Below are positions 23,065 through 27,086 of a DNA stretch of 64,000 bases, piece by piece; within the stretch, counting starts at the first letter, position 1, and each line of letters opens with the position of its first letter. The notes beneath the pieces are model-generated. The model did no database searches and was not told the DNA's origin. It saw only the letters and a program-made list of their open reading frames with translations. Position numbers and translations under genes: made by a program. Source of the stretch: Rhodospirillales bacterium (GTDB taxonomy: Bacteria; Pseudomonadota; Alphaproteobacteria; JAJFIK01); the NCBI GenBank assembly GCA_021775005.1, contig JAJFIK010000036.1, positions 1-64,000 of the forward strand. Direction: 5' to 3'.

Positions 23065-23847
23065 ATGGCCCAAAAACACCAATCTTGGCTTGATCGCCTC
23101 CTCCTCAGCGCCGGGATATCAGTTGTCACGCTCTATATGCGGTTCATCAAGGCCACCGCGCGGGTGCAACATCTCAATGAGCATTACGCGCAAGCATTTT
23201 GGGATGAAGGCACACCGTTTATCGGCACTTTGTGGCATGGGCGCTTTATCATGATGCCTTATGGCTGGCGTTCAGAGCACCCCATTGGCGCGATCATTTC
23301 AAAACACGGCGACGGCGAGTTTATTTCGCGCGTTCTGACCAACTTCAACTTTATAAATGTGCGCGGGTCGTCCAATGCCGCCAACAAAAAGCGCAAAGAC
23401 CGTGGCGGCTCGGCAGCCCTTCGCGCCATGGTCAAGGCCATACGCAACGGCACATCCATGGGCATCACGCTCGACGGCCCCAAGGGGCCACGGATGCGCG
23501 CCAAAGAAGGCGCCATTGTTCTTGCTCGCATGACCGGTGCACCCATCCTGCCTATTGCGTTCAGTGCCAACCGGGCCAAAGTCATCGGGACGTGGGACAG
23601 TTTCCTGCTGGTGTGGCCGTTTTCACGCGCCGCCTTCAATTGGGGGGCCCCCATATATGTGCCGCGCGATGCGGGGGCTGATGTGATGGAAGAAAAACGC
23701 CTGGAACTTGAGACCACACTCAATCAGCTCACAGATGAGATTGATCGCGCAATGGGGCGCATACCGGTTACCCCTGCGCCCCTGTCCGACGCAGCGCCCC
23801 CGCCCTCCCCAGCTCCGGCGAATGCTGATGCCAGCCCAACGGTCTGA
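23065..23847 (+). CDS. DUF374 lysophospholipid acyltransferase-family protein
   Basis: A 260-residue protein of the DUF374 group within the LPLAT acyltransferase superfamily. The acyltransferase core is seen as FIGTLWHGRFIMMPYGWR (His in place of the HxxxxD block), ISKHGDGEFISRVL, and GITLDGPKGPRMRAKEGAIV near residue 133. It sits at the head of the waaA-lpxK lipid A locus, so a role in envelope lipid acylation is likely; the acceptor is unknown. The C-terminal 25 residues are Pro/Ala-rich and probably flexible. waaA overlaps the 3' end. Confidence 0.85.
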   Translation: MAQKHQSWLDRLLLSAGISVVTLYMRFIKATARVQHLNEHYAQAFWDEGTPFIGTLWHGRFIMMPYGWRSEHPIGAIISKHGDGEFISRVLTNFNFINVRGSSNAANKKRKDRGGSAALRAMVKAIRNGTSMGITLDGPKGPRMRAKEGAIVLARMTGAPILPIAFSANRAKVIGTWDSFLLVWPFSRAAFNWGAPIYVPRDAGADVMEEKRLELETTLNQLTDEIDRAMGRIPVTPAPLSDAAPPPSPAPANADASPTV

Positions 23848-25138
23848 GTTGCCAGAAACTGCCCTGATGGCCCTGTGGCGCGGGCTCGCAGAGGCCGGCG
23901 GTCCATTGATCCGCAGCCATCTTCAATCCCGTGCGAAGAAAGGCAAGGAAGATCCCGCAAGACTTACTGAGCGATTTGGTCTGGCATCCGCCCAGCGTCC
24001 TGATGGTGATCTCGTTTGGCTCCACGCCGCCAGCGTGGGCGAAGCCGTGTCGGTCCTCAGCCTTATTGAGCGCACGGTATCCAAGCCCGGCACCCATGTC
24101 TTGTTGACCACAGGGACCGTGACGTCGGCGACGTTGATGGCAGAGCGCCTGCCGGTTGGGGCCATCCACCAATACGTGCCGTTTGATCGCCCCAGCTATG
24201 TGCGGCCGTTCCTTGACCATTGGCGGCCCGACTTGGGCGTTTGGGTGGAATCTGAGCTCTGGCCCAACCTCATCGGCGAAGCCCACGCGCGGCGCATTCC
24301 GCTGGCACTCATCAATGCCCGCATGTCAAAAAAATCTCATCGCGGCTGGCAGCACTGGCCAGGCACCGCAAAAACCCTATTGGGATCATTTGATGTCATC
24401 CTCGCCCAGGATAAGCGCATTGCGGAGCGCCTGCATGATCTTGGTGCCTTACATGCGCGCGCTATTGGTAATATCAAGCTCGCCGCCAAACCGCTCACCT
24501 GTGACGAAGCTGAGCTGGCCCGCATGACGGCGGCAATTGCCTCGCGCCCGGTGTGGTGCGCTGCAAGTATTCACGCACGCGAGGAAGCTGCCGTCCTGGA
24601 GGCGCATGCCCTTGTTCAAGCACGCCTGCCGCACACCTTAACCATCATTGCCCCGCGGCAACCTGATCGGGGTGCTGCCATTGCCGATGCCGCTCGGGCG
24701 CGCGGCAATGACGTGGCGCAACGCTCCCTTGGAGACGCACTGACCCCGGAGACCGAGATCTACATTGCCGATACTATTGGCGAGATGGGTCTGTTCTTTC
24801 GCCTGGCAACGGCGGCATTTTTGGGCCGTAGCCTTGTGGACAAGGGCGGCAGTAATCCCATGGAGGGGCCACCCCTTGGCTGCGCCGTGGTCGCCGGACC
24901 CCATACAGACAATTTCGCCGGACTTTATGAGCGGCTTGATCGTGCCCAAGGCGTCGCCCGCATTGGGTCTACCATTGAACTTGCTGAGACCATTGCCGCC
25001 TTGCTAAACGATCCCGTTAGCGCCAAGGCGCTTGCAGAGGCCGCCTTGACTTTGGTGACGCAGGCGCATGAGGTTCTGGATGAAACCGCAACAGCGCTTG
25101 AGAATTTGATGCAACGAGGCCCCGATGCAGCCGCCTAG
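23828..25138 (+). CDS. waaA: 3-Deoxy-D-manno-octulosonic acid transferase
   Basis: WaaA/KdtA (about 436 residues) adds Kdo from CMP-Kdo to lipid A precursor at the inner membrane. Motifs: GKEDPARLTERFG near residue 40, LVWLHAASVGEAVSVLSLIE with the catalytic-region Glu, WVESELWPNLI, LINARMSKKS, and the GT-B nucleotide site GGSNPMEGPPLGCAVVAGPH near residue 330. The start is uncertain; ATGs at 23822, 23828 and 23867 all lack a good ribosome site. I chose 23828, which keeps the family N-terminus and allows coupling to the upstream gene (20-base overlap). lpxK overlaps its 3' end by 14 bases. Confidence 0.92.
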   Translation: MPAQRSELPETALMALWRGLAEAGGPLIRSHLQSRAKKGKEDPARLTERFGLASAQRPDGDLVWLHAASVGEAVSVLSLIERTVSKPGTHVLLTTGTVTSATLMAERLPVGAIHQYVPFDRPSYVRPFLDHWRPDLGVWVESELWPNLIGEAHARRIPLALINARMSKKSHRGWQHWPGTAKTLLGSFDVILAQDKRIAERLHDLGALHARAIGNIKLAAKPLTCDEAELARMTAAIASRPVWCAASIHAREEAAVLEAHALVQARLPHTLTIIAPRQPDRGAAIADAARARGNDVAQRSLGDALTPETEIYIADTIGEMGLFFRLATAAFLGRSLVDKGGSNPMEGPPLGCAVVAGPHTDNFAGLYERLDRAQGVARIGSTIELAETIAALLNDPVSAKALAEAALTLVTQAHEVLDETATALENLMQRGPDAAA

Positions 25139-27086
25139 GTTCTGGTATCCTTCGCGACGTGGACGCACAGGCCTTTTCGCCCGGGCGCTTTGGCCCATTG
25201 CGGCTCTCTATGACTATGGCAGTTGGCTGCGGCGGCGCTTGACCCGCGCCAAGCGGGCTAGCGTTCCCGTCGTATGTATCGGCAATCTAACTGTCGGCGG
25301 CACTGGCAAAACACCGGTCGTGATTGCCCTCGCTGAGCGGCTCACGGAAGAAGGCCGCAAACCCTTTATCCTGACCCGCGGGTATGGTGGACGGCTTCCC
25401 GGCCCCGTGCGGGTCGATCCTGAAATTCATACAGCCGCTGACGTGGGCGACGAACCGTTGCTGCTGGCCCGCGCTGCGCCGGTCATCATGTGCGCTGATC
25501 GCCCCTTGGGCGCGCGCTTTGCCATCAAAGAAGGCGCCGACATTATCCTTATGGATGATGGCTATCAGAACCCCACTTTGCGCAAAGATATGTCCATTGT
25601 GGTGGTGGATGGGCGGCAGTTCTTTGGCAATGGCCGGGTGTTTCCCGCAGGCCCTTTGCGCGAAAATGTAAAAGCCGGCATGACCCGTGCCGATGCTTTG
25701 ATTGTTATGGGGGGCGAATCTTCGGCGGCGCTTCCCCTTGCGGTTGGGGACTTTGCGCGATCAGTTTTGCGGGCGCGCCTTGCGCCGCTCCTAGAAGCAG
25801 GTGCCCTGGAGGGCAAAAAACTTATCGCCTTTGCAGGTATTGGATCGCCGGAGAAGTTCTTCCGCACGGTACGCGATTTGGGCGGCCGCATTGTATCTGA
25901 GGTTTTGTACCCCGACCATCACGTTTACACAGCGCGCGATATCAAGCTGCTCAAAAAAATGGCGCGAGATGAAAGTGCCGATCTTATTACGACAGAAAAA
26001 GATCGCGTACGCCTCGACAAAGACATTAAGGGCATCAGCACGGTTCCCGTTGAAGCGCGATTTGAAAACCGGCATGACATTAAGGCGCTCACACAGAGGA
26101 TACTGGCGTTGAAAACCACTGAAGTTGAAACCACCGAAATCAGAGTTGATGATCACAAGCGGGTAAAAAAACTCGGCCATTATTTCGAAGCTGCGGGGTT
26201 TTTTGCGGTGTTATGGTTGTTCGGCGCGCTGGGCTTGAAAAACGGATCCGCCTTCGGGGGTTGGATAGGCCGCACCTTTGGCCCCATGGTGCCGCCGGCC
26301 AATCGGGCGCGGCTTAACCTCAAAATTGCCTTTCCTGAGATGTCCGACGACGAGATTGAGGCCACGGTGGTGGGCATGTTTGATAATTTAGGACGAACAT
26401 TTGCGGAATACGCTCACATTCCGAAGTTTGCAAAAGACCCCGAAGCCTATGTGGAAGTGATAGGCAAAGAGCATGTGGAAAGCGCCCGCGCCGAAGGTAC
26501 AGGTGTGCTTTTTGTCTCTGGCCACTTCGGCAATTGGGAATTGATGCCGCTGGTATTACGCCAACATGGCGGACGAGGCGCAGAGGTTTATCGTGCGCCG
26601 AACAATCCCATTATTGATGATTGGCTGATTTCTTTGCGCGCGCGGTACATTTTTCCGGTTCAGGTCCCAAAAGGATCAGAAGGCGGACGCGCCTTGCTGC
26701 GGGTGGTGCGGGCCGGCGAGGAAGTTGCCATGCTGATTGATCAAAAAATGAACGAGGGCATTCCTGTTCCCTTTTTTGGACGCGAAGCCATGACCGCGCC
26801 CGCTGCCGCCGCGCTTTCCATCCGCTACAAGATTCCTATTATTACGGCGCGTATGGAGCGGGTTAGTGGCACCAAATTTCGCTTGGTAGCAAACCCGCCG
26901 CCGAACCTACCCAGCACCGGCGATCTCAACCTGGATATCTATAATCTCTGTGTTTGGCTCAATGAGTTCCTGGAAGACGCCATCAGGGAACGCCCCGACC
27001 AATGGCTCTGGCTGCACCAGCGCTGGGGTAAATTCAAAGATGGCAAATTGGAAGAGCGCAAACCAAAAAAATCTGAAGCGGCTTAG
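25125..27086 (+). CDS. lpxK: Fused lipid A 4'-kinase (LpxK) and LpxL-type acyltransferase
   Basis: One 653-residue frame contains two lipid A enzymes. Residues about 1-330 are LpxK, which phosphorylates the 4' position of the lipid A disaccharide: N-terminal FWYPSRRGRTGLFARALWP, P-loop GGTGKTP at 58-64, ILTRGYGG, and MDDGYQNPTLRKD. After a linker (about 331-350) comes an LpxL/HtrB-like acyltransferase, with RARLNLKIAFPE, the catalytic SGHFGNWEL (His467, Glu472), IDQKMNEGIPVPFFG and QWLWLHQRWGKF. I see no internal stop or frame change. Normally these are separate proteins. Both parts keep their key residues, so a bifunctional enzyme is likely. The stop overlaps the M23 gene by four bases. Confidence 0.9.
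   Translation: MQPPRFWYPSRRGRTGLFARALWPIAALYDYGSWLRRRLTRAKRASVPVVCIGNLTVGGTGKTPVVIALAERLTEEGRKPFILTRGYGGRLPGPVRVDPEIHTAADVGDEPLLLARAAPVIMCADRPLGARFAIKEGADIILMDDGYQNPTLRKDMSIVVVDGRQFFGNGRVFPAGPLRENVKAGMTRADALIVMGGESSAALPLAVGDFARSVLRARLAPLLEAGALEGKKLIAFAGIGSPEKFFRTVRDLGGRIVSEVLYPDHHVYTARDIKLLKKMARDESADLITTEKDRVRLDKDIKGISTVPVEARFENRHDIKALTQRILALKTTEVETTEIRVDDHKRVKKLGHYFEAAGFFAVLWLFGALGLKNGSAFGGWIGRTFGPMVPPANRARLNLKIAFPEMSDDEIEATVVGMFDNLGRTFAEYAHIPKFAKDPEAYVEVIGKEHVESARAEGTGVLFVSGHFGNWELMPLVLRQHGGRGAEVYRAPNNPIIDDWLISLRARYIFPVQVPKGSEGGRALLRVVRAGEEVAMLIDQKMNEGIPVPFFGREAMTAPAAAALSIRYKIPIITARMERVSGTKFRLVANPPPNLPSTGDLNLDIYNLCVWLNEFLEDAIRERPDQWLWLHQRWGKFKDGKLEERKPKKSEAA

Follow-up and report, generated by a model that had tools for sequence, protein, structure and literature searches.

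The DNA analysed here, a stretch of 64,000 nucleotides from contig JAJFIK010000036.1 of a Rhodospirillales bacterium (the window), encodes the tetraacyldisaccharide 4'-kinase LpxK and an LpxL-type acyltransferase in one unbroken reading frame. We read this as a genuine fusion, fixed within a single genus, that joined two genes which in many Alphaproteobacteria lie next to each other and often overlap, and put the probability of this reading at roughly 0.83. The frame starts with an ATG at 25125, closes with a stop codon at 27084–27086 and has no internal stops, so that the open frame and the Pfam matches to both families bear out what an earlier note on this DNA had described as LpxK and a Lip_A acyltransferase joined in a single 653-residue frame. 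The gene and its parts, all on the forward strand, are the following.

25125..27086, forward strand: lpxK-lpxL fusion gene, 653 aa (open frame; both Pfam domains; same fusion in genomes G001 and G002)
25125..26087, forward strand: LpxK (tetraacyldisaccharide 4'-kinase) domain, residues 1–321 (PF02606, TIGR00682, A. aeolicus LpxK structures)
26106..26171, forward strand: interdomain linker, about residues 328–349, ending in a basic patch (HKRVKK) (AlphaFold2 pLDDT; alignment of the fusions)
26154..27026, forward strand: LpxL-type lipid A acyltransferase domain, residues 344–634, with H467, E472, R490 and D539 (PF03279, Foldseek, alignment A3)
26172..26288, forward strand: helix-break-helix (350–369, 371–388) that opens the acyltransferase domain (AlphaFold2 model)

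The kinase half matches PF02606 over residues 19–321 with 316 bits (cut-off 27, E 2.7e-94) and TIGR00682 with 224 bits, above the cut-off of 92. The P-loop GGTGKTP, which had been described as intact, is present at residues 58–64. The residues that matter in A. aeolicus LpxK, K51, T52, D99, E100, D138, D139 and H261 (review PMC6286764), align with K62, T63, D109, E110, D144, D145 and H265 of the fusion protein, in which the Walker B Asp pair D144/D145, the D109/H265 dyad and E110 are thus all present.

The acyltransferase half matches PF03279 (Lip_A_acyltrans) over residues 360–634 with 189 bits (cut-off 22.3, E 1.4e-55). H467 and E472 are found in the translation as previously stated, and H122, E127, R159 and D192, the residues that matter in A. 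baumannii LpxM (review PMC6286764), map to H467, E472, R490 and D539, a correspondence based on the HX4E motif and its conserved neighbours and in part inferential. In alignment A3, over 30 sequences from fused genes and in-frame tandem pairs, these four positions, comprising the HX4E motif and the conserved Arg and Asp, are invariant, as are the mapped positions of the kinase half except D109, which is nearly so. More specific LpxL models match this half below their cut-offs, the best being NF005120 with 216 against 273 bits, while TIGR02207 reaches 105 bits against 298, and the half is therefore named LpxL-type only, as distinct from LpxL proper, the enzyme that acylates the 2' chain of Kdo2-lipid IVA. 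As the fusion is the sole match to either family in the 2.85 Mb, 97.8 %-complete assembly, both jobs rest on this gene. With its catalytic residues intact, the protein would be expected to carry both activities. It would presumably exist in the cell as one uncut polypeptide.

The same unbroken fusion occurs in G001 (64 % identity; identical in sequence to locus L033 of record JAJFIL010000026.1) and G002 (61 % identity), and hence in all three genomes examined of the genus, which supports a lineage-specific fusion. In the LpxK tree the three fusions group together as a single clade (ultrafast bootstrap 100, SH-aLRT 95), and they do so again in a quickly built tree of the acyltransferases (SH-aLRT 99). 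An error in sequencing, assembly or binning might in principle have deleted a stop and a start codon from between two ordinary genes, and both the fragmented state of the assemblies concerned and the presence of two genes in relatives outside the genus would be in keeping with it. Three separate genomes, however, share the same unbroken frame and a homologous linker in proteins that are 61–64 % identical, which makes such an artefact practically negligible. A sequencing error was the first of two grounds on which the earlier note would have given up the fusion, and it fails on these three genomes; the second, relatives with two separate genes at this point, fails within the genus, whereas outside it every sampled relative has two genes, with one separate exception.

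The unfused locus L113 (genome G293, family f91) lies near the genus fusions in both trees with weak support. Its lpxK and lpxL are separated by three in-frame TGA codons, with the junction at about 2505–2560, and no obvious ATG, GTG or TTG start is seen shortly before its acyltransferase domain.

The earlier figure of 20 residues for the linker is fair for the linker proper, since residues 328–349 are loosely structured in the AlphaFold2 model; the gap between the two Pfam matches amounts to about 38 residues (322–359), and order is lowest at 332–336, where pLDDT falls under 50. The model, computed with alignment A3, in which each row reads through any stops between in-frame tandem genes, has a mean pLDDT of 89.6 and a pTM of 0.59. 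It suggests two confidently predicted domains on a flexible linker, with no clear fixed orientation between them as far as pTM indicates. Foldseek retrieves the solved LpxK structures 4LKV and 4EHY for the kinase half, and LpxM (5KN7, 5KNK) and PatA for the acyltransferase half.

Such a linker could also be the place where cleavage or an internal start gives separate proteins, in which case the acyltransferase would also or mainly be made on its own and the fusion would matter little. A linker ATG in G001 (locus L004), at about residue 336 and at a good distance after AAGGAAG, and a TTG at 26109 in the window, preceded by AGAGG, speak for this reading. The window's candidate is a TTG, however, and a weak one, and what is common to all three genomes is the fused frame and not a start, so we consider separate production unlikely. 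An internal start conserved as a shared feature was rejected, since the linker of G002 lacks any in-frame start comparable to these. The G001 ATG with its strong ribosome-binding-like AAGGAAG may still be in use, or may be what is left of a former lpxL start.

The preferred reading of a bifunctional fusion protein also fits published evidence on membrane topology. The helix-break-helix at the start of the predicted acyltransferase half has an uncharged core of just 16 residues (356–371) and is modelled in a form that makes it a probable re-entrant membrane anchor. E. coli LpxM was found to be monotopic and re-entrant, with its N-terminus and catalytic domain located in the cytoplasm by cysteine accessibility, and its authors proposed the same monotopic topology for LpxL (PMC6133551). 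A cytoplasmic kinase placed on the N-terminus of the acyltransferase agrees with this topology and would be difficult to bring into line with a single transmembrane helix. The fusion may thereby serve as natural evidence that both enzymes work at the cytoplasmic face and that the acyltransferase N-terminus is cytoplasmic, matching the re-entrant topology of LpxM.

How rare the fusion is was assessed by genome searches, in which a stop-free full-length match was found in only the three genus genomes among 385 sampled from the class, and in none but the window's own among 398 sampled from the phylum Pseudomonadota, counts that may miss fusions since a long linker can split one fusion into two rows, as happened with the Parvularculaceae case described below. 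The open-frame length reported by the search may run through stop codons and is insufficient alone to call a fusion; G415, G425, G430, G437 and G441 were rejected as additional fusions after their fetched loci turned out to hold separate genes. Family f12, which is well sampled in the class and which, at a guess, could be the sphingomonads, shows almost no LpxK or LpxL match in complete genomes and may lack ordinary LPS.

One further fused lpxK-lpxL frame, of 696 codons, is present in the Parvularculaceae MAG MED-G105 (SHAI01000070.1, locus L038). Because the two genes are unfused in its closest relatives (about 70 % identity in the acyltransferase) and it lies far from the window's genus in both the LpxK and the acyltransferase trees, we regard it as a separate fusion event, albeit one seen in a single genome, where it may be an error.

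The genomic context offers a simple source for such events. In 127 of the 129 fetched loci with both genes, lpxL directly follows lpxK within 300 nt. The tandem pairs overlap in 66 of 131 cases (by exactly 4 nt in 41 and by 8 nt in 13) and share a frame in 29 of the 131, nearly all of these one stop apart; gene starts were chosen by rule for these counts, and the loci were picked by query similarity, with some Deltaproteobacteria and duplicates among them, and form a non-random sample. Where the locus of a sampled relative extends far enough, DUF374 and waaA lie upstream of the pair; on the pair's other side, several relatives have an M23 peptidase gene in convergent orientation. With the two genes adjacent and often overlapping or one stop apart, the fusion is a small step from a common operon, and its origin would have needed little beyond the loss of one stop. 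That many lineages are one stop away and few are fused would argue against a strong general advantage.

The window itself retains this context upstream of the fusion gene:

23065..23847, forward strand: DUF374 gene and probable lpxJ (for a late 3' secondary acyltransferase), which overlaps waaA (PF04028, 86 bits)
23822..25138, forward strand: waaA (Kdo transferase), start ATG at 23822 or 23828 (PF04413, 193 bits)

The end of waaA at 25138 gives a 14 nt overlap with the start of the fusion gene, and since DUF374, waaA and the fusion overlap one another, the cluster looks translationally coupled. Together the three genes cover 23065–27086, about 4 kb, in agreement with the earlier statement that the Kdo-lipid A segment lies within 4 kb. 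DUF374 proteins are LpxJ late acyltransferases that acylate the 3' chain; they are able to act before LpxL, in epsilonproteobacteria even ahead of Kdo transfer (PMC6148475). The DUF374 neighbour exceeds the PF04028 cut-off of 26.8 bits, and WHGRF and SKHGDGE were picked out by eye in its translation as candidate counterparts of the residues mutated in Rickettsia LpxJ (W60, H61, H84 and D86). It is very probably lpxJ, in which case lpxJ, waaA and the fusion, overlapping one another, would probably account for the final four steps of lipid A synthesis. LpxC and LpxB are present in one copy each on other contigs, the lipid A gene set having been sampled through LpxC, LpxB, LpxK and Lip_A_acyltrans as well as through waaA and DUF374 in the window.

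Taken at face value, the N-terminal domain would phosphorylate the 4'-position of the lipid A disaccharide, and the C-terminal domain would add a secondary acyl chain, from the inferred order of steps most likely after Kdo addition by WaaA. The product is most likely bifunctional, its two active sites working independently of each other while tethered together at the inner face of the inner membrane. In the E. coli pathway, the step between those of LpxK and LpxL belongs to the Kdo transferase WaaA, and a direct hand-over from kinase to acyltransferase is for that reason not expected. The suggestion that fusion binds phosphorylation to late acylation holds in the covalent sense; a direct hand-over of substrate is not supported, given the intervening WaaA step, the flexible linker and the lack of a clear domain arrangement.

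If the tethered acyltransferase accepted lipid IVA directly from the kinase, ahead of Kdo addition by WaaA, this would constitute a new route, with Kdo-independent acylation in this genus. The covalent link between the domains and the precedent of LpxJ-type late acyltransferases that act before Kdo transfer (PMC6148475) lend it some plausibility. Yet the window has a waaA gene that overlaps the fusion, the model has no clear fixed domain arrangement, and a non-systematic look at alignment A3 noticed no acyltransferase residues that separate the fusions from unfused relatives, so that we consider such a reordering highly improbable. The lineage-specific lipid A route that the earlier note had envisaged likewise finds no support: the fusion has the catalytic residues usual for such enzymes, the genome encodes LpxC, LpxB, WaaA and DUF374/LpxJ, and relatives have the same enzymes from adjacent genes. 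A fusion of two ordinary enzymes most likely leaves the pathway chemistry as before and gives no evidence for a new lipid A; any gain would probably come from having the two enzymes in equal dosage and at one place, not from new chemistry. It does provide a ready-made single-chain construct with which to ask what LpxK and LpxL gain, if anything, from being held together.

The literature searched contains no report of an lpxK-lpxL fusion; most subscription journals and UniProt/InterPro lay outside its scope, and the novelty of what is apparently an unreported domain architecture in a well-studied pathway is provisional. The nearest published cases are an lpxC/fabZ fusion and waaA-lpxK clustering (PMC3087551). 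In the lpxC/fabZ fusion of Bacteroidetes and others, adjacent lipid A-related genes have merged as here, though these are other genes at another point of the pathway.

Compared with LpxK itself (PF02606, TIGR00682; A. aeolicus 4EHX, 4LKV), the fusion has the domain, the fold and the mapped catalytic residues in common; characterised LpxK proteins are, to our knowledge, single-domain, whereas here an acyltransferase comes next on the same chain. With the late acyltransferases LpxL and LpxM (PF03279; A. baumannii LpxM 5KN7) it shares the family, the HX4E motif, the R and D residues and, in the model, the helix-break-helix start, but differs in the kinase that precedes the acyltransferase N-terminus and in scoring below the specific LpxL cut-offs. 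The Parvularculaceae fusion has the same two domains in the same order and in one frame, with a linker about 35–40 residues longer. Closest in organisation is the alphaproteobacterial lpxJ-waaA-lpxK-lpxL cluster, which has the same genes, order and short overlaps as the window and keeps separate the last two genes that are fused here.
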